From the NCBI GenBank assembly GCA_947567595.1, contig CANOMQ010000022.1, positions 1 through 60,657 of the forward strand: a stretch of DNA of 60,657 bases, written 5' to 3'. Of the stretch, positions 33,965 through 49,256 are shown piece by piece; position 1 is the stretch's first letter; each line of letters begins with the position of its first letter. This DNA comes from an uncultured Lachnospiraceae bacterium (GTDB lineage Bacteria; Bacillota; Clostridia; Lachnospirales; Lachnospiraceae). The notes beneath the pieces were generated by a model. The model was not told the DNA's origin, searched no databases, and saw nothing but the letters and a program-made list of their open reading frames with translations. The translations under genes were made by a program, and so were the position numbers.

Positions 33965-35020
33965 ATGAAACAGTTTTTTGGAACAAGTCAGAGCGGGGAT
34001 TTGGCGGCGGCAGTCCGTAACCTAAATAACCCGAAATTCATCATGCTCCTGTCAAACAACACACAGTTTGAAGCGCATGTAAAGACTTTGGAATCCCTAT
34101 ACCCCAAAGTCCCAAGCATCGGCTGTATCGGCATGAGCTATGATACCAATATTACGGAGAACGGCGTCAGCGTTATCGCATTTCTGGATGATGTCAGCGC
34201 GACGGCAAACGTGCTCGAGCAGGTGTCCGTCATGCCCGTAAAATACATTGAGCGAATGGATAAGGATCTTACAAAAATCGGTGCTTCGGCACAGGATACC
34301 GTATGTATCGACTTTTGCAGCGGCAACGACGCCTGCGTTCTTACGACCATTTATTCCTGCCTAAAGCACAGAGGAATCCAGCTCGTAGGCGGAACAGGCG
34401 ACGCGGGAAAGGTATCCGCAAACGGTAAGGTCTACAACGATGCCGTCGCTTACGCACTTATCAAAAATCACGGCGGGCGCGTCAAGACATACAAGGAAAA
34501 CATCTACCACAAGCTTGGTAATTACCGCTTTATCGCCTCCAACACAGACCGCGCCAACTATATCATCGGTGCGCTGAACGGAATGCCGGCAAAGCAGGTG
34601 TACAAGGACATTCTCCATGTGACCGACGAGGGTATTCTTACGCAGACCTTTAAAAATCCTTTTGGAAAAATTAACGGAAACGACACCTGTATTATTTCCA
34701 TTAAAGAGGTCAGCGGGAACGCGCTTGCATGCTTCCGTCAGGTGAACGACTCCGATGTCTTAATCCTGCTGGAGCTGGGCGATTTCAAGGCGACCGTCAG
34801 ACAGACCATCGAAACAATCCGCCGCGAATTTCCAAGACGTTCTGCAGTCTTTTCCGTGAACTGCCTGTTTCGGTATAAGCTGTTTTGCGAGCATAATTAT
34901 ATGCAGGAATATCTCAGAGAAATGGGTGCACTGGGCACACACGCAGGGCTTGTCGGCTACGGGGAGCATTACAACAACCGCTTTGTCAACCAATCGATGA
35001 CTTGCGTTGTGTTTGAATAA
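33965..35020 (+). CDS. FIST sensory domain protein
   Basis: 351 residues, soluble, no signal peptide or membrane helix. Residues about 1-190 match the FIST_N domain (PSIGCIGMSYD, GIQLVGGTGDAG), and about 215-345 match FIST_C (AKQVYKDIL, then FSVNCLFRYKLFCEHNYMQE and LVGYGEHY). FIST domains are predicted to bind small ligands such as amino acids and to feed signalling outputs. Here the output is probably the methyl-accepting protein encoded 15 bp downstream. AGGAAAGGA precedes the ATG. Confidence 0.85.
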   Translation: MKQFFGTSQSGDLAAAVRNLNNPKFIMLLSNNTQFEAHVKTLESLYPKVPSIGCIGMSYDTNITENGVSVIAFLDDVSATANVLEQVSVMPVKYIERMDKDLTKIGASAQDTVCIDFCSGNDACVLTTIYSCLKHRGIQLVGGTGDAGKVSANGKVYNDAVAYALIKNHGGRVKTYKENIYHKLGNYRFIASNTDRANYIIGALNGMPAKQVYKDILHVTDEGILTQTFKNPFGKINGNDTCIISIKEVSGNALACFRQVNDSDVLILLELGDFKATVRQTIETIRREFPRRSAVFSVNCLFRYKLFCEHNYMQEYLREMGALGTHAGLVGYGEHYNNRFVNQSMTCVVFE

Positions 35021-35035
35021 AGGAGGGAGCACATC

Positions 35036-35962
35036 ATGTTTTTTAGAAATAACCGGGGAAAATCCGGACAATCCAAAAACCTTTATCCGATTTTGCACGT
35101 GACAAGCAGCCTGAACGACTACCAAAAGGAGCTTGCGCAAAAGGAAGTGGAGTCGTTGTCGGAGCTTGGCATGGTCAGCAGCTCCTTTGCGGGCGTACTC
35201 AACGAAGCGGAGAATTTTCAGACACAGCTTCATGATTTCGGCGACTCGTTTTTCAGCGTCAACGAAGCGGCAGGTCAGTTTGCACAGGTAAAAGAAGATA
35301 TTTCCCAAACCGTATCTGGCGCACAGGAGATGGTGGAGGAGCTCAAGCTCACCTCCGCACAGGTTCAGGACGCTTACAGCGCAATGCAGAGCACCTTCGA
35401 GCAGCTCCAGCTTGCCGTAAAGGACATCCGGCGGTGCATGGGCAAAATCGTGTCCATTGCGGATGAGACAAACATTCTTGCATTAAACGCGTCCATCGAA
35501 GCGGCAAGAGCCGGAAACCACGGCAAGGGCTTTGCGATTGTCGCGGAAAAGGTCGGAGAGCTTGCAAAGGAAATCAAGGGGCTGACCGATGATGTTGACG
35601 TGAGCATACATAACGTGGAAAACGGTGCAAACCACCTAAATGAAAGCATTACGCAGTCACAGCAGGTACTGGGGCAGAACATTGATATTGTAAATAATAC
35701 CTCAAAATCCTTTGAGCAGATTACCGAGGTTGCGGACGGCGCTTCATCGGTGCAGTCGGAAATAGCCGAGGTAATCCTTGACTCGCAGAGTAAGCTGCAA
35801 TTACTTTGTCAGTTTTTTGACAAAATCAAATATCAGTATCAGGAGGTTGTAAAGCACATTGACCGCGCCAGCAGTCTTGGCACGACAAAGAGTACCATGT
35901 TTGAGGACATGAACAACATGCTCTCACAGATTGAGCCGATGATGAAGGATACAAATTCTTAA
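35036..35962 (+). CDS. Soluble methyl-accepting chemotaxis protein
   Basis: 308 residues without membrane helices. Residues 1-100 form a helical lead. The signalling hairpin tip is [20 protein letters not shown], followed by [20 protein letters not shown]. The rest is a coiled coil. It is a short cytoplasmic chemoreceptor of the MCPsignal family that would control CheA. It has no ligand domain of its own. The FIST protein encoded just before is the likely sensory partner, together acting as a split receptor. It may govern motility or another Che-like output. A terminator follows. Confidence 0.88.
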
Positions 35963-35972
35963 ATGATTTAAC

Positions 35973-36013
35973 AAAAAAGCGTTTCCGACAGCTTTTATGC
36001 CGGAAACGCTTTT
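35973..36013. terminator. Bidirectional terminator after the receptor gene
   Basis: AAAAAAGCGTTTCCG pairs with CGGAAACGCTTTT, giving an 11-12 bp stem with U-runs on both strands. It separates the receptor operon from the convergent thioredoxin gene. Confidence 0.9.
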
Positions 36014-36040: not shown

Positions 36041-36355
36041 TTATGCGATATGTCCGCTGATAAACTCCTTTAGCTTCTCCTTCGACAGAAAGCCGACACT
36101 CCTGCCTGCCACCTCGCCATCCTTGAAAACGACAAGCGCGGGAATATTCTGAATACCATATTTGAACGCAAGCTCGTCGTTCGCGTCAACATCCGCGTTA
36201 AAAAATTCAAGCTTTCCCGCAAACTCATCCGAGATTTCCTCCAGCACAGGCGCAAGCATTTTGCAGGGGCCGCACCATGTCGCGGAAAAATCCACCAATG
36301 CAAGTTTACTTGTAAGTGCCTTACTCATGTCGTTATTCTCAATTTTATTTACCAT
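36041..36355 (-). CDS. trxA: Thioredoxin
   Basis: 104 residues from the second ATG, which has GGAGG 5 bp upstream; the first ATG lies within that site. The active site is TWCGPCK with C28 and C31. The cis-proline block IQNIPALVVFKDGE is also present. It reduces protein disulfides. It lies 54 bp after the coiled-coil gene and could be co-transcribed with that pair. Confidence 0.95.
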   Translation of the reverse strand: MVNKIENNDMSKALTSKLALVDFSATWCGPCKMLAPVLEEISDEFAGKLEFFNADVDANDELAFKYGIQNIPALVVFKDGEVAGRSVGFLSKEKLKEFISGHIA

Positions 36356-36409
36356 GTTTTCCTCCATTCTTCATAAAAGACTGTTTGTCCATAATTTGTA
36401 TGCGCTTGA

Positions 36410-36994
36410 TTATTCCACTGTCAGACCAAGCTCCCCCAAGTCCTCCGGCGCTGATACAGATGTCTCTGCATTCTCCGCCTTGCCCTCGGGATCGTACTCC
36501 TGCTTCTCCTCCTCGTCGTCCCAAAGCGACTCATATTCTTCCTTCTTTTTATTTTTCATCTTGTTGAGCAATGCAAGGTTTTTTGCCGCCAAGTATAGCT
36601 CCATGCTATAATCCATGACCTTTTTCTCGTCCGAAGCAGGCACGCGCGCGCCCTTACCAATGCGCCGTGCGGTCTCCATGATTTTACCCATTTCCAGCGC
36701 GGCGTCCTCCATCGCGTCCTTTTGCTGCTTGGAAGCCTCCGCGTTAAAAACAGAAACGTACTGCTCCGTCAGCCTGTCAAGCACCTCCTGATTTTCGTCA
36801 AATTTCTCGTTCAGTGCGCCGATTGTCAGCTCTAGGGTTGCCGCCTCGTTTGCATAAACCTCGCGCTTTTCCGAAGAAAAGGCTGTCTTGGCTTTTTTAT
36901 CCAGCTCTTCCTTTTTCTTGGCAAGCTTTCTGCGCCGGTCAATGATTGTCGCACGCTGTGCACGGTATAGTTTCTGTGCTTCTCCGACCTTCAT
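36410..36994 (-). CDS. Coiled-coil protein of unknown function (sigma-D operon, gene 2)
   Basis: 194 residues, nearly all charged helix: residues 1-130 are coiled coil (LYRAQRATIIDRRRKLAKKK, then EELDKKAKTAF). An acidic tail follows from about 150 (SLWDDEEEKQEYDPEGKAEN). No membrane segment, signal peptide or enzyme motif is seen. It starts 28 bp after the larger coiled-coil gene and is probably in its operon. I do not recognise a characterised family. The upstream sigma-D promoter suggests a role in late flagellar assembly, motility or the cell surface. Confidence 0.75.
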   Translation of the reverse strand: MKVGEAQKLYRAQRATIIDRRRKLAKKKEELDKKAKTAFSSEKREVYANEAATLELTIGALNEKFDENQEVLDRLTEQYVSVFNAEASKQQKDAMEDAALEMGKIMETARRIGKGARVPASDEKKVMDYSMELYLAAKNLALLNKMKNKKKEEYESLWDDEEEKQEYDPEGKAENAETSVSAPEDLGELGLTVE

Positions 36995-37022
36995 ATCATC
37001 ACATCCTTTTGAAACGCTCCCA

Positions 37023-38351
37023 CTATCCTTGTGTTATAACGATTCTATCCTCCAGCTTTACATCCTCGTCTGTCTCGGAATTGTTGTTCACTTCCTCCGG
37101 GTCTTCCTTTGGATTGAGCAGTTCTCCGATTTCCTTTTCTTCCTCCTCGTCCTTTTCCTCCTCGGAGTCTACGTGGTCTATATCGTTGCGCTCGTCGATT
37201 AAATCCTTTACCTCGTCCTCAAGCTCCTGCGATGTCTCGTCAAGCTTGCCCTGTGACGCCTCGTTGAATGCGGCGTCCACTGCGGACTGTATCATGCTGT
37301 CCCTTGTTTCCTCCATGCCTTGAAGCGGGTTTGCCTTGATGTGTTCCTCATTGCATTCCTTCGCGTCGATGAGCATCTGCTGACCACGCCGTTTGTAATT
37401 GGCAAGGTCACTGTCCTTTACCGCCATAGAGCGATAGCGTTCCAATGCTTCTTCTTTGTCCTTCTTTGTGTAATTCGCACCAAGCAGGATTTCCAATTCA
37501 GCGGATGCTTTTGGAGCCATTTTCAAACCGTAGCTAAATACTGCCTCCTTTTTTTCCTCATCTGATATATTTTCATCATTGAGAAACTCTTTTAAGCTTT
37601 TCGCCTCGTCACGCATCTTGTTTTCAATGTCATCTGCCTTCGCAAGATATTGAAGTCCTTCCTCCTGCAGTTCATGAATTAATCCGACTACATCCAGTTC
37701 CCGTTTCATAGAGGATGTTGCAAACCTTGTCGCGGAGTCTGCAATGGTATCGCTTACACTGTTTTCCTGATTTGAATCGCTGCTGCCATCACCTTCTGAT
37801 GTTTTACCCTCACACTCTTCTTCTACCTCCTCAGCCTCTTCAATGCTCTTTAGCATCACCAGCAAATCCCGGTTTCCCTTATCAATTTCGTCCTGCATTT
37901 CCGATGACTGCATTGCCATCTGCTGTGCTTCCTTTGCCCTCTTTTGGTTCTCCTCCTGCTGTTTCATCTTCTGATCCCGTATAGAGCCAAGTACATCCTG
38001 CTTTCTTTGAAGTGTCTCTAAATCCTCGTCTGCTACCTTAGAGTTCTTCATTGATTTTATAATATTATCTATTTCCTCCATCAGGTCCAAATATTCACTC
38101 TTTGTCGTTTCTGACAGCGCTTCATCAATCTGCTCCATTTTCGCCATTCTCTGCGTTCTCAGTACCTGTTCACTCTTTTGCGTGCGTCTGTCCGACTGCT
38201 CACTAAGCTTTCTTCCCTCTTTTGAAATCGTCACCCTGCACTGTGGTCCGTCAAAAGGCCCGTTCTGACTTTGCATGTGCTGACGCTTCTGCTGTGCTGC
38301 CCTGCCGATTGTTACATTGATATTGTTGTCTGTAAACATTTTAATTTGCAT
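37023..38351 (-). CDS. Coiled-coil protein of unknown function (sigma-D operon, gene 1)
   Basis: 442 residues from the ATG with GAGGTGGGGTG upstream; a longer frame upstream is rejected because it crosses the promoter. The N-terminus has MFTDNNINVTIGRAAQQK and CRVTISKEGRKLSEQSDRR, the latter a motif I have seen in function-unknown Lachnospiraceae proteins. Most of the rest is coiled coil with acidic low-complexity stretches (EEAEEVEEECE near 180 and DSEEEKDEEEEKEIGELL near 400). No signal peptide or membrane helix. It is the first gene after a perfect sigma-D promoter. Confidence 0.8.
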   Translation of the reverse strand: MQIKMFTDNNINVTIGRAAQQKRQHMQSQNGPFDGPQCRVTISKEGRKLSEQSDRRTQKSEQVLRTQRMAKMEQIDEALSETTKSEYLDLMEEIDNIIKSMKNSKVADEDLETLQRKQDVLGSIRDQKMKQQEENQKRAKEAQQMAMQSSEMQDEIDKGNRDLLVMLKSIEEAEEVEEECEGKTSEGDGSSDSNQENSVSDTIADSATRFATSSMKRELDVVGLIHELQEEGLQYLAKADDIENKMRDEAKSLKEFLNDENISDEEKKEAVFSYGLKMAPKASAELEILLGANYTKKDKEEALERYRSMAVKDSDLANYKRRGQQMLIDAKECNEEHIKANPLQGMEETRDSMIQSAVDAAFNEASQGKLDETSQELEDEVKDLIDERNDIDHVDSEEEKDEEEEKEIGELLNPKEDPEEVNNNSETDEDVKLEDRIVITQG

Positions 38352-38448
38352 AAAACACCCCACCTCATTCCTTTGAAATTTTCCGCAATTCCGTTTGCTT
38401 TTATTTTTTGATAAATTATGATATTGGTAAAAATTATAATTTATATTT

Positions 38449-38475
38449 ATATCGGCAAAATGTCTGAAATTTTTA
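38449..38475 (-). promoter_or_regulatory. Flagellar sigma-D (sigma-28) promoter
   Basis: TAAA, exactly 15 bases, then GCCGATAT on the minus strand. This is the consensus of the Bacillus sigma-D promoter with no mismatch. It lies about 100 bp before the 442-residue coiled-coil gene, with nothing else in between. Confidence 0.8.
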
Positions 38476-40128: not shown

Positions 40129-43100
40129 TTAATTCTTCTCTTCTTTGATCGTGATGTTGACTGTGCCGGTGTTGTTTGGCAGGATGTACATATACACTAC
40201 CTTATATTTATTGTAATTGCTCACATATGCGTAATCCTGATATCCCTGACCTACAGTCAGGCTACTATTGCCCATAGAATCTATCCAATTATTGTTGCCT
40301 AAATAACTCGCATATCTACATTGCAGATAATTGTATTCGTTCGCCCTGCCTTCAACACGATAGCTCTGCTGATTTGTGTCCTTCACCTTAAAGTATATCC
40401 ACTTCTCCTCATCGGCTGTTAAAGATAGGCTTGTTTCTTTGCCTAATGTAACCTCCTCCATCGTCACCTTTTCGTCTTTGCTGACTGTAAGAATAACTGT
40501 TTCTTCATTGCTGTTGTAGTCGTTTATCTTAAGATATACCGTCGTACCCATAATTAATGGATAGCAAATTATCCCATTATTACTTGAAGACTGAGAACTG
40601 CTTCCATTCAAATGCGCCTCTTTATCCGCATACAAGTAGATAGTAGGTTCTCTGTTCTCAGCCGGCGCAAATGTATATATCCCTGTTTCAGGTGCGGTGA
40701 ATTTTACCATGGCAGTGTTGCTCGCTAATGTAATCTTATTCTCCCCGTTGCCTAATTCCGGAAACTCCACTTTTTCCGCCGTAAGAGACGCTTCATTGTA
40801 ACTGTTCGTCTTTAAGTACACGGTTTCTCCCTTTTCAAACGGATAAGTTACTGACTGACCCAAAATTGAATTCACATTGCCCTCTGCTTCAAACTGTTCC
40901 TTCGTATACAGATAAACATAGCTCGCATTTCCGTTGGAATCTTTACATGTAAATGTATACTCTGTCTCCTCGGGTGCAGTGAATACAAACCATGTGTCTT
41001 TGTAGTTGGCAGGTATTGTCTGCGCTACTGATACATCCGTCCATGGTGTCGGATCAATCTTAGTTGCGCTTAACGTTGCCGTGGCTTCTGAACTGCCGTT
41101 GTTTCTCAATCGAATATACACAATGCTACCTGCTTTCAACCATCGTTCCGTAAAACTGTTCTTCTGTTTGTTCACATCGTCGTAACATACTATATCAACA
41201 TTATAGGAAGTTGATGTACATTTAAAAGAATATCTTCCATCGCTTTCCACCTGATAGCTGTACCACGGTTTTTTACCTGCTCCCACCGTAACCTCATCTG
41301 TTGTAAAGGGCAGTATTGTCGATTGTGTCTTTTCAACTTTCACTGCTGCATCGGAAAAATAGTAGCTGTTATATCCGCTACCAACTCTTAACCATACCTT
41401 CTGTCCTGCTGGTAAGTAACACGTTATTCCATTCGAACTGCTTGAAACATTAACCTGCTTGATGTATTCGTCATTCTGCAAGCTATTGTTTAATGACAAT
41501 TTTTCCATAATATATGCGGTTGCAGAAAAAGTTAAATTTTCTAACGTAAATTTATAAAACCCTTCTCCGTCCTGCGCAGTAAACGAAATCCATCCATAAT
41601 TATCGTTTCCTGAACCAGCACCTGAAGCCGCAAGCGCCAATGCGTCACCGCCTGCCGTCAATGCGTTTATCACGGTCTTTTCCACCGTTAATGACAAATC
41701 ATTCCACGAACTGTCGTTCTCTACTTTTAACGAATACGCCGTTCCCGCTTCTAACGGATATGATATTGTCCCATTCCATGTTACGGATTTTAACGGCGTC
41801 GCTTCATCGCTGGCTAAGTAAATTCCCATGCTCTTTGCGGAGCTGTCCAGCCTAAACGTATAAACCGCATCCGCGCCCGGCGTGAGGGTGTAGCGTGTTG
41901 TTGCGTTCCGCTCCGCACTCTGCGGATACTCGGACTGGTTATCCGTTATGACAACCGGCTCTACCTTTATTACCTTGAATGACGCCCCCCTGTACTCATT
42001 GATGTATGCCTTCACATAGACCGTGTCGTTTGCCTTCATCGTACAGGTTGTTCCCAAAACTGCATTCTTGTTGATCGCATCATGGTCTTTATATACGCTA
42101 AAATTAATGCCGGCATTGTTTTGCGCCTTAAAACGGTAATCGCCGTCTTCCTCCGCCGTAAAGGTGTACCAATAGGTCTGCTCGTATTCTCCAGAGTACG
42201 CTTCTCCTGCTTTGATCGGCTGCATGCTGACTGCAGAAACCTCAATATTATTCTCATATGAGTTGTCATTCTCTACATATACGGTATCCTGCGCCTTCAT
42301 TGCATAGTATATTGAATTGTATTGTTTCTTTTGTGTAAGTTCTCCGTTCTCATACGCATGAAGTTTTATCAAATTTTCTGCGTTAAAGCTGTACAGTCCG
42401 TCTTTCTGTGCCGTAAATACACCCCATCCGTTTGCGGACAGCGTTGTTTTTTCATTCAGCTTAAGCGGCGTTCTGTTTTCAAGACCTGTTCCGGGAACCT
42501 TTTCTACCGTTATCGTACCGGATGTAGGTTGATAAGAGCTTCCGCTTACCTTAATAGTCTTTGTCGTTCCCTTCTTCACATTCTCCAAGCTTGAAGGTGA
42601 GGCACTCAGTCCTGCGGATGTGACAATCTTATAATTTCCTGCCTCCTCCGCCGTAAAGCTGAATTTCTGCGGTTCTCCCGCTGCAAGCTCTACTGATGCA
42701 GGTATGTTCAGGATAAGCTTTGTCTTTGTATCATACTTGTCTGTGCCGTCGCCGCGCAAATCCTCGTTCTCGTCATAGAAGTATGCGTTGTTGTATGCGT
42801 CGCCGACTGACCTTACGGTCACTTTCCATCTTGCGATTGTCTGCTTCAGGATGCCGGACTTCACTTCAATGATTGTTGTTCCTGCCTTCAGCGCTTTTAA
42901 GTTTGCAGAATAGGTGCCGCCTACCGCGCTGATTTTTGCCACCTTGCCGTCAGAGCTGCTCCATGTGAGCTTATCCGTTACGGCGTACTGTGCACCCTGA
43001 TTTGCATCCGCCACAAGCGTATAGCGGTTGCCTGATACAAACGTGTAATCGTCTACATCTGTCTCTGTCAGTTCACCTTTCGCAAATACCTGAATCGGCA

Positions 43101-46100
43101 TACCAAAATTTAAAGCGTCGTTTGCGATTCCGGTATCCCATGCGGGCAGCTTTGTCATTGTAACTGCCTTTGATACAGGCTTTGACTTCGCATCCCCGTA
43201 TACTGCCGTCACTGTTACGTTATACTTGCTGTTTGCCGTAAGACCTGTTACCTTAAATCGATCTACATAATCCGGCTGCCATACATATGCTTTTTTCTTT
43301 GCGCTGTAATACCAGATGTATCCGTCATTGCAGCCACATTCTTCAAGGTACTCATCGCGCTGTGAGATATACTTGCGCTGTACAAGCTTTCCTGCGGAGT
43401 TCTTGATGTCAACAATATATCCCTCCGCATAAATGCTCGGCGCAAAATCAAGCATGAAGCTGTTGTCAATCAGATTGCTGAATTTCAGGTTCTTTACGGG
43501 GTCAAGATCCTTTATCGTAACCGTGGCTGAGCCGCTGACCGCCGGACCTTCGCCTGCTGTTACTGTCACGCTCTGTCTTGACGCTGTTTTCTCAAATTTA
43601 ACAGGCGTAATGTTTCCGTTTTTGTCTGTCTTAAGGCAGTCGCTGTCCGCCGCTGTCGCTTTGTGTGCGAAATACGGATTGCCGGAGTCAAGCGCGCTTT
43701 TTCCTGCCTTATATGCCACAAGGTCAACAACCGGGGTCTTCTGCCCTACTTGTAATGTTACCTTCGCGCCTGCCGCGCTGTCTGCATCCGCCTTAATTCT
43801 TATGATAATCGGAGCGGATTGCGTCTTTGTCACGGTATCATATGCCGTAACCGCGAGCGCCTCGGGCTGTGTGAACTTCAGTTTGCCTTTCTTGTCAGCC
43901 TTTGTGTACTGCGCGTAGGTGTATTCCCTATTCCAGTCATTATAAATCTCGTCGTAATAATCATGCCTTACATATTTCCAAAGTCCGTCCTCCTCCTGCA
44001 CCACCTGATACATACGGTATTCCAGCTTCGGCTCAAGGAGCTTCGTCTTTAACGCCGCCTTATCCGCGCCGATAAACGGTACGGCATAACCCTGCGACAA
44101 ATCAGGCTGTTCCGCCTTATCCACTTCATCCGCAAGCGCCGAGAACACCCCGGTCACCGCAAGCTGTACGCCGCCGCTTGTCAGGTCATACTCATAGTAA
44201 GGCACGTCTGTTGTCCTGTCTTCCCCCATTTCGTCATCATAAATATATAATGACGCTGACTGCGCTTCGCCCTCTGATGCAACCACAAGCTTCTTCACCT
44301 GTCCGAGCGTGGTCGTAAAGTCCTTGGGCATGCCGTTTGACGACAGCTCCGCCGTTCTCCTGTTTCCGTCCTTATCCAAAACCGTGCGGCTTGCGCTGAC
44401 GTTTCTTACATAAACGGAATACGGGGTCTTGGGCGTTAATCCATCCACCTTGACCTGTATCGTCACATTCTTGCCGCCTGCAATTCCTGAAATATTTTCG
44501 TCATATGCGTACTGCGTATATATGCCTCGGGCAAGCTCGTAAGCAATATCCTCTTCCGCATTGTTTGAAACATATACCGGATTTGCCGCAAGACCTGCGG
44601 TCTTATAGTCGCCTGTCTCTTCGAATTTCCCGATTGCTTTCTCAAAGTCGTCAACGGTTTTTTTGTTGTCCGGCATTACGTAAATTTCACGGCGGTAGCC
44701 GTAATCATAGTACTTTCCGTTGTTCTTTACATACGGGTACTGTACGTCCACAGATACGTCGGCGGGAAAGATTTTTCCGACCTTTGGAGCCGCAACCTTG
44801 GAAACGGTAATCTTTACCTGTCCGGGCTTGCAGCCGTCTGTGATTTCCTTCTTTTCATTGCCCACAATCTTTACAGGATATACTTCAACTGTCGCGTTGC
44901 CCTCTTTTAACGCAGTCACCCTTCCCTGACTGCTGATTGCGAGAACGTCCGCGCCATCTGTCACTCTGTAGTCAAGATATACAAGATCCTCGTTCTGCAC
45001 CTTTGTTATTTTCACGTCAAGATCCTGCACTTCGCCGACTACCATCTTGGTCTTGGGCGCGTTGAATGCAACGGACTTTGGTGCAACTGCGTTTCTCAAA
45101 TCCGCCGCAAGGTTCTCCTGTGTCGGCGTGATTGTGAATTTTTCAACAAAGCCTTCCTTCCACAAGATTGAGAAAGTCACGGGATTTGGCTCAAGTCCGT
45201 TTTCTCCGTCCTTGGAAAGGTTGAATGTTGCCGTGATTTTTCCGTTATCATCTTTCCTGACATTAATTCCGCCCGCCTTTTCCAGCGCGTTTTTATAAAT
45301 TGCCGTTTCGGGAGCTCCGTCCTCAAACTCGGACGGCGGGGTAATTTTTACGGTCGCCCATGCGCCATATACCGTCTTTGTCACGCCGTTTTCCGTAACC
45401 TTCTGTACCGTGTACGGAACTGCCTGCCAAAATGTAACTTCGTGCGCAAACTTTTCTGAGGTTTCGCCCTTTGTTACTTTGTCATTGATTTTTATGCTGC
45501 TGTCCGAACCTGCAGGGAATAATTGCACCTTCTCGGCGCTTACATACGCAGGCGTTATCTCCACGGGTTTGCCTGATTTTAGCTGATAGTTCAGGCTGTA
45601 TGGATAAGCAAGCTCTCCATCGCCACCATCAGTTGTAGCATTGATTGTATATTTCTCGCCGCTCTTTAATCTGCCCTCATAACGCTCATTATCGCTTCCG
45701 TATACGCACAAATACGGAAGATCCACATAGCTAAATTCCCCGTCTTCATCATACCGCGCAAACACCGGATAGCCATAAACGATTTGATTACCGTCCTCTC
45801 TGTCTCTACCCAGCATCTGCCACGTTGTAAACGCATCCTTTACTTCCTGTGTTTCCTTCTCTGGAAAACCTGCAATTGTAAGGATATCTCCATCCTTCTC
45901 TTTGTTATGATACTCTTTGTAAAGGTTATATGTGTCCGTTCCGGCTTTTACTTCCTCCGCAGGCTGCTTTGTTACCGTTACCGTAAGCTCCGCTTTCTTG
46001 ATAACCGCTGTCGCTACCTGCTCACGGTCTGCCGGGGCATAATTCTCATCGCCGTCATATTTTGCATAGATGGTGTAGGTTCCGGCAGTTACAGCCTCCT

Positions 46101-49100
46101 CGGGCGATACAACCTTATTATTTTCAAATGCTTCATTTGACCACTCCCAAACGAACTGGGGCGTTATCTCTTTATTATCGCTGTCCGTATACTTTACGTT
46201 GGAAAGGTCAACGGTCACCGGCGTATTATCATAGGTTTTTTCCGCCTTGATTTCTTTATCAGGCAGCTTCATGGTGAGCTTCTTTTCGCCTGACGACTTG
46301 ACAGTAATCGGCGCGTTGGAAAGGTTCTCGCTGACAGCCGTTACGATAGTCTTGCTGTCCTCATTTTCACCTTCTGTCTTTGTTTCAACGGTGTATTCCA
46401 CAAAAGTATAGTTCGTGGATACGTGTCTGCTGTCATTGATGTATACGCCATACTCATCATACAAGAGCCTGTATTCATTCTGAGCCGGCTTCTGGTCGGG
46501 GTTTTCCCCTGTCCGTTCTGTAAAGCTCCATACCGTTTTCCATCCGTCCCATTCAGGCTTTTCGCCTTCTTTCCCGGGAGCCGGCGCTTTTGCTTCCACA
46601 TACCAGTAATTGTAACTGTCAAGAGAATAGTCACCGTCTTTTTTGTCCTGCGTCCAATCTGACGCTATCCAGTTCCCCGCATTGTTCTCGTTTATTTCCA
46701 GCTTCGGGGCGAACTTTGATTTGTTATCAAAAACATAGTACTCCGTATCCATGCCGTAATGCGCCTCGGGCACGTTTGTCGCCTTAAGGCGCAGCTGCTG
46801 CCGCTCGATTGCGTAGTAAACGTTTTCCTGCGCATACGCCGAACCGTTGTCACAGGTAATCTCCAGCTTATAGATACCCGCGTTGCTTAAGCAGCTCTTT
46901 ACGGAATTGAAATCCTTATGATTGACCGGCAGCGGAGTCCAGTCTGCCTTAAAGTCCATTTTTTCGTTTAAGACTTCGACATACGCCTTGTTGATGTCAT
47001 AGTATGCGTCATTACCCTTACTATTACCACCCCACTTATACCACTTATAAGTCAGGTTCTCGTCTCCGGTCGCGGTCTTATAAGCGGCGCGGGTATCGTA
47101 AAGCGCCCCGCCTTCCTTGTAAACCTTTGTGTAGATGGTATTGCCGTCTATCGTGCGCTCCGCCTTTTTCAGTCCTGCCGCCGCAAGCGCCGCGTCGCCT
47201 GTAATCGGTGTTGTGTCGATCTTTGCATCCGATGGCGAAAGCGCAAGAACCAGATTGTTTTTGGCAATCGTGTCCGCGTCAGTTTTTGTTTTATAATTGC
47301 TGTTATAGGAATCAACGGTTTCGTCGTTAATCTCTTTCAGTTCATCGTACGAATTTATCACGCCATTCTCATTACGCACTGCCTTTTTGCCCGTAAAGCG
47401 CACCTCGTACGTCACGCCGTCCGCCTTCGCAAGCTTATCCATATCCTTCATCTGTACGGCTGTGTCCTTTTCAACCCTGAACACGCCAAAAACAGGCTCA
47501 TACGGCTGAGTCTTATCAACAGCGTCATACGACGTACCCCATATGCCTTCCACGCCCTCTTTATCCACGCTGTAAATGATTTTTGTAAGCACATCCTTAA
47601 CAGTCTCGCCCGCGTAGAATTTCGTGTTTGTATCGGCTAACGCCGGCTTAACCGTCACTTCAACCGGAGCAATTTCCACCACGATATCCGCATACGATGC
47701 TGCATATTGCTCCTTATCACCCGCGTATGAAACACGATAAACATATGTTCCCGCTTCTGTGGGAGCGCTGCCTTCTTTGAGCGCATTGCCTACCGTCAGG
47801 GTGCAGAGCGTTACCGGCACGTTCTTATATATGATATTGCCGTCCTCGTCCTTCTTTTCGGTACCGTCTGCCTCTTTTTCCGCTTCCTGTTTGGTTTCCT
47901 CCCATAAACGGAACTCAGCGGAATGCCATCTGCCCTCGGTTGCAGCCGAAGCAATCGCTATGGACTGATCCGTCTCCTTGCCGTCCTCGCCAACGACCGT
48001 TTTTACTTCTTCTACCTTTGCCGTATATGAGGGAACTGCCGCCGCATTCTTGTCGTAGGTTTTTGTGATAACCTGTACTTTCGCACCATTATCGCTACGC
48101 GTTGCCTCCTTCTTTTCTCCGGCAACCTCAAGCGTTGTCCTTGTTTTCTTTAAGTCTGCAAAGCCAATCTTTTCCGTGGTGGTCTTTGGCAGGTTAAAGT
48201 TGCCTTTTTCCGCATCCGTCACCAGCGGATTGCCGTCCGCATCCTTGGCATCGGAAAAGCTGACTGTAATCTTTGCCGTATAGTCGCCGTTCTTTTTCAG
48301 ATACGTATCTGTCGTTTTGCTTCCGGTGTAAGGGTCAATGACCTCGTCTACCGTTACCTTGAGCTGATTTTCCTTATTTTCGGAGCTGTATGTAAAGCTT
48401 CCGCTTCCGTTTTCCGCAGAAACCGTCAGGGACGTTATGCTGTTGATGACCTCCTCTGGTTTCGTGCCGGGCTTTACGTTCAGCGTAAGATTACTAATTA
48501 TGACTTCCGCTTTTTCAATGGTAAATCCTTTGATGGTAATCGGCTCTGCATTGGCAAACTGCCCGTCCGCCACAGGTGCAATCGTCATCTGGTATGCGCC
48601 TGCATTAACCGGGGCGGTGGCGAGATCTTCGTCCTTTGCGCCATCCTTCTTCCATGTGAAAGTGAAGTCCTCTGTATGATTGGAAAGCTCACTATACTCC
48701 TCACCGTTTTTCTTAATTGCAATCTTACTTAAAATTTCCCATGAAGGCACTTCGCCATATTCCGTAAACTGTTGTTCTCCGTTATAGGATTTCTTCATGA
48801 TTTCGGCGGCATCATCATCACCCTCAAGATTATTCTCAAGCGTGTATGTTACCTCCGCTGGTGTGTTGTCTCCCTCCGCCTGATTATCGGCTTCCTGCGC
48901 TTCGGCTTCCTGTTCGTTAGCTTCCTGCGCTTTGGCTCCCTGTACGTCTGGCTCAACCGCATCCTCTGCCGCCGTACTTTCCTCCACCTGCACCGTACTA
49001 CTTACGGGTTCGGCTTCCTGCGCAGCTTCATTCTGTGCTTCCACAGTTTCCGCAACGGCTTGCGTTTCCGCTTCCTGCGTTTCAACCGCCTGCGTTTCTG

Positions 49101-49212
49101 CTTCCGCCGCAAACGCCGTCTGCGGTACGGATGTTACAAGCATTGCCGCCGAAAGTGCAAGCGCAATGATTCGTTTCGCTTTAAAAAGCTTCTTTAGTTT
49201 GTCCGGTTTCAT
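40129..49212 (-). CDS. Giant secreted multidomain protein (Ig-like, FN3-like, tandem beta-sandwich)
   Basis: About 3,027 residues from the ATG with GGAGG upstream. A signal peptide covers residues 1-37 (RIIALALSAAMLVTSVPQ, AFAA). Residues ~40-130 are an Ala/Glu/Gln repeat region (AEAQEADNQAEGD). Then come many Ig-like modules with YDG/YDN/YDK starts, a BIG2-like domain near 1390-1480 (DVLAISSQGRVTALKEGNAT), FN3-like parts near 1600 and 2000, and a second BIG2-like domain near 2090 (LTWSSSDGKVAKISAVGG). The last ~850 residues hold about nine repeats of a jelly-roll module of the PPC type (FTAEEDGDYRFKA, FTAPETGIYTF, FTAQKDGLYSF). No LPXTG, S-layer or other anchor is seen. It could be an adhesin or a scaffold held by the lipoprotein encoded just upstream. 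Substrate or partner is unknown. Confidence 0.85.
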   Translation of the reverse strand: MKPDKLKKLFKAKRIIALALSAAMLVTSVPQTAFAAEAETQAVETQEAETQAVAETVEAQNEAAQEAEPVSSTVQVEESTAAEDAVEPDVQGAKAQEANEQEAEAQEADNQAEGDNTPAEVTYTLENNLEGDDDAAEIMKKSYNGEQQFTEYGEVPSWEILSKIAIKKNGEEYSELSNHTEDFTFTWKKDGAKDEDLATAPVNAGAYQMTIAPVADGQFANAEPITIKGFTIEKAEVIISNLTLNVKPGTKPEEVINSITSLTVSAENGSGSFTYSSENKENQLKVTVDEVIDPYTGSKTTDTYLKKNGDYTAKITVSFSDAKDADGNPLVTDAEKGNFNLPKTTTEKIGFADLKKTRTTLEVAGEKKEATRSDNGAKVQVITKTYDKNAAAVPSYTAKVEEVKTVVGEDGKETDQSIAIASAATEGRWHSAEFRLWEETKQEAEKEADGTEKKDEDGNIIYKNVPVTLCTLTVGNALKEGSAPTEAGTYVYRVSYAGDKEQYAASYADIVVEIAPVEVTVKPALADTNTKFYAGETVKDVLTKIIYSVDKEGVEGIWGTSYDAVDKTQPYEPVFGVFRVEKDTAVQMKDMDKLAKADGVTYEVRFTGKKAVRNENGVINSYDELKEINDETVDSYNSNYKTKTDADTIAKNNLVLALSPSDAKIDTTPITGDAALAAAGLKKAERTIDGNTIYTKVYKEGGALYDTRAAYKTATGDENLTYKWYKWGGNSKGNDAYYDINKAYVEVLNEKMDFKADWTPLPVNHKDFNSVKSCLSNAGIYKLEITCDNGSAYAQENVYYAIERQQLRLKATNVPEAHYGMDTEYYVFDNKSKFAPKLEINENNAGNWIASDWTQDKKDGDYSLDSYNYWYVEAKAPAPGKEGEKPEWDGWKTVWSFTERTGENPDQKPAQNEYRLLYDEYGVYINDSRHVSTNYTFVEYTVETKTEGENEDSKTIVTAVSENLSNAPITVKSSGEKKLTMKLPDKEIKAEKTYDNTPVTVDLSNVKYTDSDNKEITPQFVWEWSNEAFENNKVVSPEEAVTAGTYTIYAKYDGDENYAPADREQVATAVIKKAELTVTVTKQPAEEVKAGTDTYNLYKEYHNKEKDGDILTIAGFPEKETQEVKDAFTTWQMLGRDREDGNQIVYGYPVFARYDEDGEFSYVDLPYLCVYGSDNERYEGRLKSGEKYTINATTDGGDGELAYPYSLNYQLKSGKPVEITPAYVSAEKVQLFPAGSDSSIKINDKVTKGETSEKFAHEVTFWQAVPYTVQKVTENGVTKTVYGAWATVKITPPSEFEDGAPETAIYKNALEKAGGINVRKDDNGKITATFNLSKDGENGLEPNPVTFSILWKEGFVEKFTITPTQENLAADLRNAVAPKSVAFNAPKTKMVVGEVQDLDVKITKVQNEDLVYLDYRVTDGADVLAISSQGRVTALKEGNATVEVYPVKIVGNEKKEITDGCKPGQVKITVSKVAAPKVGKIFPADVSVDVQYPYVKNNGKYYDYGYRREIYVMPDNKKTVDDFEKAIGKFEETGDYKTAGLAANPVYVSNNAEEDIAYELARGIYTQYAYDENISGIAGGKNVTIQVKVDGLTPKTPYSVYVRNVSASRTVLDKDGNRRTAELSSNGMPKDFTTTLGQVKKLVVASEGEAQSASLYIYDDEMGEDRTTDVPYYEYDLTSGGVQLAVTGVFSALADEVDKAEQPDLSQGYAVPFIGADKAALKTKLLEPKLEYRMYQVVQEEDGLWKYVRHDYYDEIYNDWNREYTYAQYTKADKKGKLKFTQPEALAVTAYDTVTKTQSAPIIIRIKADADSAAGAKVTLQVGQKTPVVDLVAYKAGKSALDSGNPYFAHKATAADSDCLKTDKNGNITPVKFEKTASRQSVTVTAGEGPAVSGSATVTIKDLDPVKNLKFSNLIDNSFMLDFAPSIYAEGYIVDIKNSAGKLVQRKYISQRDEYLEECGCNDGYIWYYSAKKKAYVWQPDYVDRFKVTGLTANSKYNVTVTAVYGDAKSKPVSKAVTMTKLPAWDTGIANDALNFGMPIQVFAKGELTETDVDDYTFVSGNRYTLVADANQGAQYAVTDKLTWSSSDGKVAKISAVGGTYSANLKALKAGTTIIEVKSGILKQTIARWKVTVRSVGDAYNNAYFYDENEDLRGDGTDKYDTKTKLILNIPASVELAAGEPQKFSFTAEEAGNYKIVTSAGLSASPSSLENVKKGTTKTIKVSGSSYQPTSGTITVEKVPGTGLENRTPLKLNEKTTLSANGWGVFTAQKDGLYSFNAENLIKLHAYENGELTQKKQYNSIYYAMKAQDTVYVENDNSYENNIEVSAVSMQPIKAGEAYSGEYEQTYWYTFTAEEDGDYRFKAQNNAGINFSVYKDHDAINKNAVLGTTCTMKANDTVYVKAYINEYRGASFKVIKVEPVVITDNQSEYPQSAERNATTRYTLTPGADAVYTFRLDSSAKSMGIYLASDEATPLKSVTWNGTISYPLEAGTAYSLKVENDSSWNDLSLTVEKTVINALTAGGDALALAASGAGSGNDNYGWISFTAQDGEGFYKFTLENLTFSATAYIMEKLSLNNSLQNDEYIKQVNVSSSSNGITCYLPAGQKVWLRVGSGYNSYYFSDAAVKVEKTQSTILPFTTDEVTVGAGKKPWYSYQVESDGRYSFKCTSTSYNVDIVCYDDVNKQKNSFTERWLKAGSIVYIRLRNNGSSEATATLSATKIDPTPWTDVSVAQTIPANYKDTWFVFTAPEETEYTFTCKDSNGNASYVYLYTKEQFEAEGNVNSILGQSVTYPFEKGETVYLKTNSYNEASLTAEKVEFPELGNGENKITLASNTAMVKFTAPETGIYTFAPAENREPTIYLYADKEAHLNGSSSQSSSNNGIICYPLIMGTTVYLKINDYNSNEETVILTVSKDEKVTMEEVTLGKETSLSLTADEEKWIYFKVKDTNQQSYRVEGRANEYNYLQCRYASYLGNNNWIDSMGNSSLTVGQGYQDYAYVSNYNKYKVVYMYILPNNTGTVNITIKEEKN

Positions 49213-49256
49213 TCTTTCCTCCATTTCCTGAACAGTTCCGTCCATTTTTCATGATG

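Follow-up and report, generated by a model that had tools for sequence, protein, structure and literature searches.

Sigma-D is released once the hook-basal body is complete, and flagellin is the classical target of CsrA. For the flagellin genes of Roseburia and Eubacterium, a sigma-28 consensus of TAAA-N16/17-MCGATAa was reported (PMC3720852). The binding sites of RsmE/CsrA were described as ANGGAN hexaloops, and the hag leader of B. subtilis possesses two CsrA sites, one of which lies on the Shine-Dalgarno sequence (PMC7652899). The flaA leader of C. jejuni, where CsrA mainly binds flagellar mRNAs, carries two GGA hexaloops 21 nucleotides (nt) apart (PMC4894983), and in the fliC leader of C. 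difficile one site is predicted at −45 to −34 and another, on the Shine-Dalgarno sequence, at −20 to −9 (PMC11898703). The locus considered here lies on a 60,657-nt contig of an uncultured Lachnospiraceae bacterium (CANOMQ010000022.1, assembly GCA_947567595.1; the whole contig is hereafter the window) and consists of three genes on the minus strand in the order P1-P2-trxA, preceded by a sigma-D-type promoter and a leader of about 100 nt. As judged from its sequence, it is probably a late-flagellar operon that combines sigma-D transcription with translational gating by CsrA and FliW. The original prediction for this DNA had placed a perfect sigma-D promoter before two acidic coiled-coil proteins of no characterised family, and this was confirmed: the promoter stands at 38475..38449 (minus strand), the profile searches (Pfam, NCBIfam) returned no family for either protein, and the AlphaFold2 models are mostly helices. 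The CsrA-type hairpins, trxA as a third gene and a wider set of co-controlled orphan families are new beyond that prediction. The promoter with its conservation, the motility-linked distribution, the hairpins and the presence of sigD, flgM, fliW and csrA are established directly on the sequence level.

The promoter, TAAA-N15-GCCGATAT (38449..38475, minus strand), is composed of a −35 element TAAA (38475-38472), a 15-nt spacer and the −10 element GCCGATAT (38456-38449). It is the sole match in the window, in which 0.03 matches were expected and which gave a match in 3 of 100 shuffles. Across the whole genome (4.16 Mb), the exact motif with a spacer of 14–16 nt has 8 matches and the reversed pattern has 2; of the 8 matches, at least three (L001, L003 and L005) fall within long reading frames. 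The exact motif is thus weakly specific genome-wide, and for this reason it is conservation, rather than the match by itself, that makes the case for the promoter. Conservation was scored in the relatives whose sequence covers the region before the first P1 gene (n = 4): both the window and all four (L009, L010, L012 and L014) have TAAA-N15/16-GCCGATA beginning 94–125 nt ahead of the P1 ATG, and the genes upstream of it differ among the relatives wherever they are readable. In a further relative (L011:15-1591), P1 is duplicated in tandem; the upstream sequence there covers only the second copy, which has neither such a promoter nor the leader motifs. An incidental promoter match, with P1-P2 being an ordinary cytoplasmic coiled-coil operon that occurs in motile genomes by shared ancestry, would fit the weak specificity of the 12-base pattern. 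However, it is a quite improbable explanation, given that the promoter is conserved despite different upstream genes and that a perfect promoter also precedes a different P2-containing operon, DUF6033-P2, in genome G024.

Several late flagellar genes of the same genome carry promoters of this type. The sequences are TAAA-N15-ACCGATAA for the flgM operon, TAAA-N16-ACCGATAT for the flaG operon, and TAAA-N15-GACGATAT and TAAA-N15-ACCGATAT for two flagellin genes. These promoters, TAAA-N15/16-NCCGATAW or GACGATAT, agree with the sigma-28 consensus reported for Roseburia and Eubacterium (PMC3720852). The genome encodes sigD (TIGR02479, above cut-off). From the promoter at a plausible distance, the presence of sigD and a promoter type common to the genome's own late flagellar genes, we infer that sigma-D transcribes the operon. 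As originally proposed, the operon lies outside the main flagellar cluster as far as this was followed, with flgM and the listed flagellins on contigs C5 and C6, sigD on C4 and the operon on C22.

The distribution of the two proteins points to motility as well. P1 is narrow, being found in 2 of 150 family genomes and at five further loci in named genomes. The P2 profile matched 15 of the same 150 genomes, and all 15 are flagellin-positive versus 82/150 overall (p = 6.1e-5). With a wider P2 profile, 36 of 299 family genomes were matched, all 36 of which are above the sigD (FliA/WhiG) cut-off versus 152/299 (p = 2.6e-12); the sigD-positive genomes are named for 150 of the 152, and all 36 P2 genomes are among those named. 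Among 291 genomes of the class, a P2 match was found in 5, and three of these lie outside the family. In G196, a genome of the same genus, the P2 match is broken by a stop codon. A sigma-D-like promoter matching at least 10 of 12 positions was found at 14 of 31 P2 loci, the window's own included (combined p = 2.9e-5; 31 of 32 loci were scored, L090 being dropped for having no parsed domain open reading frame), and at several loci below this threshold P2 is not the first gene. Two points weigh against the motility link: the co-occurrence statistics ignore phylogeny, the 299 genomes being about one per genus and not phylogenetically independent, which would also suit an incidental match and shared ancestry; and only 36 of the 152 sigD-positive genomes have P2, so P2 is not essential for motility. 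However, the 36/36 association of P2 with sigD, together with the leader hairpins described below, argues against an incidental match. The search for homologues widespread in non-motile relatives behind an unconserved promoter found P2 in sigD-positive genomes throughout the family draw (36/36 vs. 152/299) and the promoter conserved, supporting the predicted sigma-D control and motility link.

The second layer of the proposed control lies in the P1 leader. The P1 leaders have GCAAAYGGAATYGC and CAANGGAATG in common, which can be folded into two hairpins with ANGGAN hexaloops. In the window, these are hairpin 1, GCAA-ACGGAA-UUGC (38385..38398, minus strand), 34–47 nt 5' of the P1 ATG, and hairpin 2, UUCA-AAGGAA-UGAG (38364..38377, minus strand), which overlaps the Shine-Dalgarno sequence; both are putative CsrA-type sites. 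The GGA-GGA spacing is 21 nt in the window and 24, 23, 22, 21 and 22 nt in the other five leaders. The genes fliW and csrA are adjacent, just upstream of flaG in the genome's own flagellar cluster (Pfam). Thus, the leader combines features of CsrA targets, i.e., ANGGAN hairpins, a GGA over the Shine-Dalgarno sequence, and csrA with fliW in the genome, suggesting that CsrA may bind it.

The same hairpin was sought in the leaders of P2 and of two further families, DUF6033 and the family of an orphan gene, L008, under a strict definition, i.e., an ANGGAN loop, at least 4 Watson-Crick pairs and a position 10–70 nt before the start. It was found in 5/6 P1 leaders (p = 1.4e-8, a value that is overstated as the six leaders are one lineage), 11/26 DUF6033 leaders (p = 7.6e-11), 6/11 L008-family leaders (p = 3.3e-8) and 5/29 P2 leaders (p = 1.5e-4), versus 1/194 controls. 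The leaders parsed were 26 of 30 for DUF6033, 11 of 20 for the L008 family and 29 of 30 for P2, and the controls were 212 leaders minus 17 shared with family members and minus L160, a DUF6033 gene; the raw 212 gave 11 matches, 10 of them mis-filed genes. Any triplet other than GGA in the loop gave a mean count per triplet of at most 0.06 in the same leaders. A pairing-blind test was also used, in which every ANGGAN 20–62 nt before the start was taken and the pairing of its flanks was scored in register versus slid. The flanks pair at 81% in DUF6033 (20 sites), 85% in the L008 family (10) and 83% in P1 (12), versus 28% in 52 control sites and 4–39% with the arms slid; the values for P2 (14 sites), FlgM (5) and flagellin (5) are 57%, 55% and 40%. 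Under a looser definition (any GGA loop, stem score of at least 5), the hairpin is found in 16/26 DUF6033 and 6/11 L008-family leaders versus 18/212 uncleaned controls, and where the best hairpin has a stem of at least 6, GGA is at the loop in 12/17, 3/5 and 10/57, respectively. In the six-row P1 alignment, 95.8% of the cells pair in each helix versus 23–35% when slid, and hairpin 2 has a U-A pair replaced by C-G in L032 as its one compensatory change.

Several observations weigh against CsrA control of this leader. The covariation in P1 is slight (one changed pair, a level that 81 of 500 shuffles reach), so that for P1 taken alone the pairing is equally explained by sequence conservation, and L009 has one broken pair in hairpin 1. 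Minimum-free-energy folding gave the six P1 leaders no greater stability than shuffles (z −0.92 to 1.02), and for two of them, L010 and L009, the best fold departs from the two-hairpin form. The genome has 9 flagellin matches; the leaders of 5 were examined and none has the strict hairpin, and only 1 of 18 FlgM leaders has it. The P2 leaders carry it in only the 5/29 given above, and under the looser definition they are no better than controls (3/29, p = 0.48). In addition, C. difficile fliC was reported to need only the Shine-Dalgarno site (PMC11898703).

Taken together, a two-layer control can be proposed for P1-P2-trxA. On completion of the hook-basal body, sigma-D would be freed from FlgM and would then transcribe the operon. 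The P1 leader would fold into the two ANGGAN hairpins, the second of which would cover the Shine-Dalgarno sequence; owing to this position, CsrA could hold P1 translation off until it is removed by FliW. Flagellin export would release FliW from flagellin, FliW would take CsrA off the leader, and the synthesis of P1 and P2 would thereby be timed to filament growth.

P1 (37023..38351, minus strand) is an acidic coiled-coil protein of 442 amino acids (aa) with an isoelectric point (pI) of 4.50, and P2 (36410..36994, minus strand) is one of 194 aa with a pI of 5.08. Neither has a Pfam match at curated cut-offs or an NCBIfam match up to E = 1, ten P1/P2-related proteins likewise have no Pfam match above cut-off, and no PDB sequence matched P2 up to E = 1. 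A phage or plasmid origin was considered and rejected, P2 having no match in a phage set and P1 none in a plasmid set, these being the two pairings run. The AlphaFold2 model of P1 shows long helices with low-confidence ends at a mean predicted local distance difference test score (pLDDT) of 60.7; its N-terminus is polar and probably disordered, the motif QCRVTISKEGRKLSEQ occupies residues 37-52, and an acidic, low-confidence tail follows at the other end. The P2 model is a long helical hairpin (H3-37, H41-113, H120-145) with a mean pLDDT of 76.5, and its comparison with solved structures gave generic helical hairpins only (the ESCRT-III/PspA fold was considered). P2 thus combines an N-terminal helical hairpin with a conserved module, ARRIxxGxxVPAxDEKKLMEYSxELYxxAK. 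The third gene of the likely operon, trxA (36041..36367, minus strand; thioredoxin, Pfam PF00085), lies 42 nt 3' of P2, and a thioredoxin-like frame directly follows P2 in all five relatives that have P1 and P2 together. Cys38 of P1 is invariant among six aligned P1 proteins and may be linked to the presence of trxA beside P2.

The original prediction had proposed that the pair belongs to a motility-associated structure or regulator. This proposal is supported in part, namely for the association with motility; a structural or regulatory role is no more than a candidate one, and what the proteins do we infer from their features. The favoured function, still a tentative one, is that P1 is soluble and acts either at the flagellar export gate or through it and that P2 is its helical-hairpin partner or chaperone; it is favoured because of the probably disordered N-terminus of P1, rich in Ser, Thr, Asn and Gln (S/T/N/Q), and a short FlgM-like motif. 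A related, similarly doubtful possibility is that P1 is a non-structural export substrate, secreted or filament-associated, with P2 as its dedicated chaperone and trxA maintaining the conserved P1 cysteine in its reduced state until export. The S/T/N/Q fraction of residues 2-25 is 0.41 in P1, 0.42 in DUF6033 and 0.45 in the L008 family versus 0.24 in 202 controls, and the N-terminus of P2, at 0.27, is far nearer the controls and more charged, as would suit a helper. By a 30-residue measure, 5 flagellin/hook-type proteins and 28 FlgM proteins both reach 0.37. P1 residues 1-62 are below a pLDDT of 50, whereas P2 forms a helical hairpin from residue 3; the invariant Cys38 and the trxA next to P2 in 5/5 relatives would also suit such a role. 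Moreover, the Campylobacter flagellum exports non-flagellar proteins, and the candidates reported from an export-signal screen include two annotated coiled-coil proteins (PMC2764114). However, the signal in N-terminal composition is weak and unspecific, and the 7 P1 proteins belong to a single lineage. P2 also occurs mostly without P1 (P1 in 2/150 vs. P2 in 15/150 genomes), and in G022 P1 stands without P2 and trxA next door.

The short motif also bears on a different and rather unlikely explanation, according to which P1 and/or P2 are FlgM-like cytoplasmic regulators, i.e., an additional, divergent factor that modulates sigma-D or CsrA as an anti-sigma or checkpoint protein. At the place of the FlgM motif DKVEISxxGK, P1 has CRVTISKEGRKLSEQ (hhalign P = 0.005, one comparison; probability 7.2%), and a D-x-V/L-x-I-S-like motif is found in several P2-module proteins. 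However, among the matches listed, the FlgM hidden Markov model (HMM) puts no P1 or P2 above the shuffled controls, the one exception being a P2 relative with E = 0.2, where the best shuffle has 0.32, and a true FlgM is present on contig C5. P1 was rejected as a FlgM homologue, its HMM scores being inside the range of shuffled P1 controls so that the short motif alone remains, and the C-terminal module of P2 was rejected as a FlgM-like domain at an hhalign probability of 1.3%.

The partners of P1 and P2 vary by genus and are drawn from a small set. In the clade of the window, the arrangement is P1-P2-trxA. DUF6033-P2 is found in G024, where the perfect promoter TAAA-N15-GCCGATAT lies 109 nt upstream, and in G171. 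The other partner, the A family, comprises coiled-coil proteins with RKxAMKLISDAW; it is followed by P2 in G004 and by P1 in G022, with TAAA-N16-GACGATAT before A, and it stands directly after DUF6033 in at least three loci (L126:455-1432, L129:487-1482 and L134:381-1400, all on the minus strand). In many other loci, P2 occurs without such a partner gene. P1 may be distantly similar to the A family: an hhalign comparison of the two scored 29.2, whereas 30 block-shuffled controls reached at best 21.2, but the probability is only 6.7%.

The other families show the same ties to motility. Of the 150 genomes, 44 have DUF6033, and every one of these is flagellin-positive (p = 1.8e-15); 13 of the 25 genes parsed, from 30 loci, match 11 or 12 of the 12 promoter positions. 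The genome has two DUF6033 genes of its own, L159:1726-2550 (plus strand, contig C7) and L160:2264-3142 (minus strand, contig C3), with the sigma-D-type promoters TAAA-N16-ACCGATAT and TAAA-N16-GCCGATAA, and the leader of the latter gene has AAGAGC-ACGGAT-GCTCTT 5' of the start. The L008 orphan (227 aa; L008:719-1402, minus strand, own contig C38) has a perfect sigma-D promoter about 126 nt upstream and a leader hairpin AACC-ACGGAT-GGTT, and the 61 of 150 genomes in which its family occurs are without exception flagellin-positive (p = 2.7e-24). A Ser/Thr-rich orphan of 188 aa (L004:820-1386, minus strand, own contig C13) also has a perfect sigma-D promoter, TAAA-N16-GCCGATAT. On contig C71 of G171 (L163), seven orphan genes stand in a row, including an L008-like gene (its motif GYWGVKQTS was recognised by eye), two further orphans, DUF6033 and P2, and a sigma-D-like promoter precedes the last two genes. 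A search of the open-access literature by title and start of abstract gave no paper on the P2, DUF6033 or L008 families, only DUF6033 being sought by name and the other searches being on sigma-D, FlgM and CsrA topics. A broader and more speculative proposal, held with low confidence, is that flagellated Lachnospiraceae possess an orphan regulon, made up of P1, the P2 module, DUF6033 and the L008 family, with the A family as a probable further member. The regulon would be sigma-D-transcribed and CsrA-FliW-gated like flagellin, and the flagellar export machine would take its products as non-flagellar cargo or be served by them as chaperones of such cargo.

In the draws examined, the orphan families are confined to genomes bearing sigD or flagellin (P2 36/36, DUF6033 44/44, L008 family 61/61), and the same families carry two control signals of late flagellar genes, which makes their role testable. 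The P1-P2 operon thus points to an unexplored part of the Lachnospiraceae motility programme. Should many such genes be under CsrA-FliW, the CsrA of Gram-positive gut commensals would be a regulator of a broad late-motility programme, beyond flagellin, and their flagellum may serve more than swimming.

Around the operon, an inverted repeat with T-rich ends (AAAAGCGTTTCCG / CGGAAACGCTTTT, 35975..36013, unstranded), read by eye, is likely a terminator common to the operon and the facing gene for a methyl-accepting chemotaxis protein; a terminator scan for loops of 3–8 nt did not report it, its loop being 13 nt. The facing genes (33965-35962, plus strand) encode a FIST-domain protein and then this methyl-accepting chemotaxis signalling-domain protein. 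Beyond the promoter, a very large frame of 3038 aa (40129-49245, minus strand) is found, and a protein similar to it ends immediately before P1 in L009.

Compared with known systems, P1 resembles FlgM (PF04316) in a short DxVxIS-like motif near residue 38, but P1 and P2 have no FlgM domain by Pfam and the profile comparisons fail; the pair belongs neither to FlgM nor to any named family tested. DUF6033 (PF19498) is a separate family, whose Pfam model P1 and P2 do not match, but it resembles them in being found in flagellin-positive genomes only (in the 150-genome draw), in its sigma-D promoter and hairpin, and in adjoining P2 in G024 and G171. Unlike the late (class III) sigma-D/sigma-28 operons of flagellin, flgM and flaG, the P1-P2 operon has no member of a flagellar, chemotaxis or autolysin family as far as Pfam and NCBIfam show and lies on a contig separate from flgM, sigD and the listed flagellins; with them it shares the promoter type TAAA-N15/16-NCCGATAW, found in the same genome and reported in the same family (PMC3720852). 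P1 differs from the CsrA-FliW-controlled products of B. subtilis hag, C. jejuni flaA and C. difficile fliC in not being a flagellin, its CsrA binding is predicted, and the own flagellin leaders examined are without the hairpin. However, like those leaders, that of P1 has two GGA hairpins 21–24 nt apart, the second over the Shine-Dalgarno sequence, in a genome that contains both fliW and csrA.

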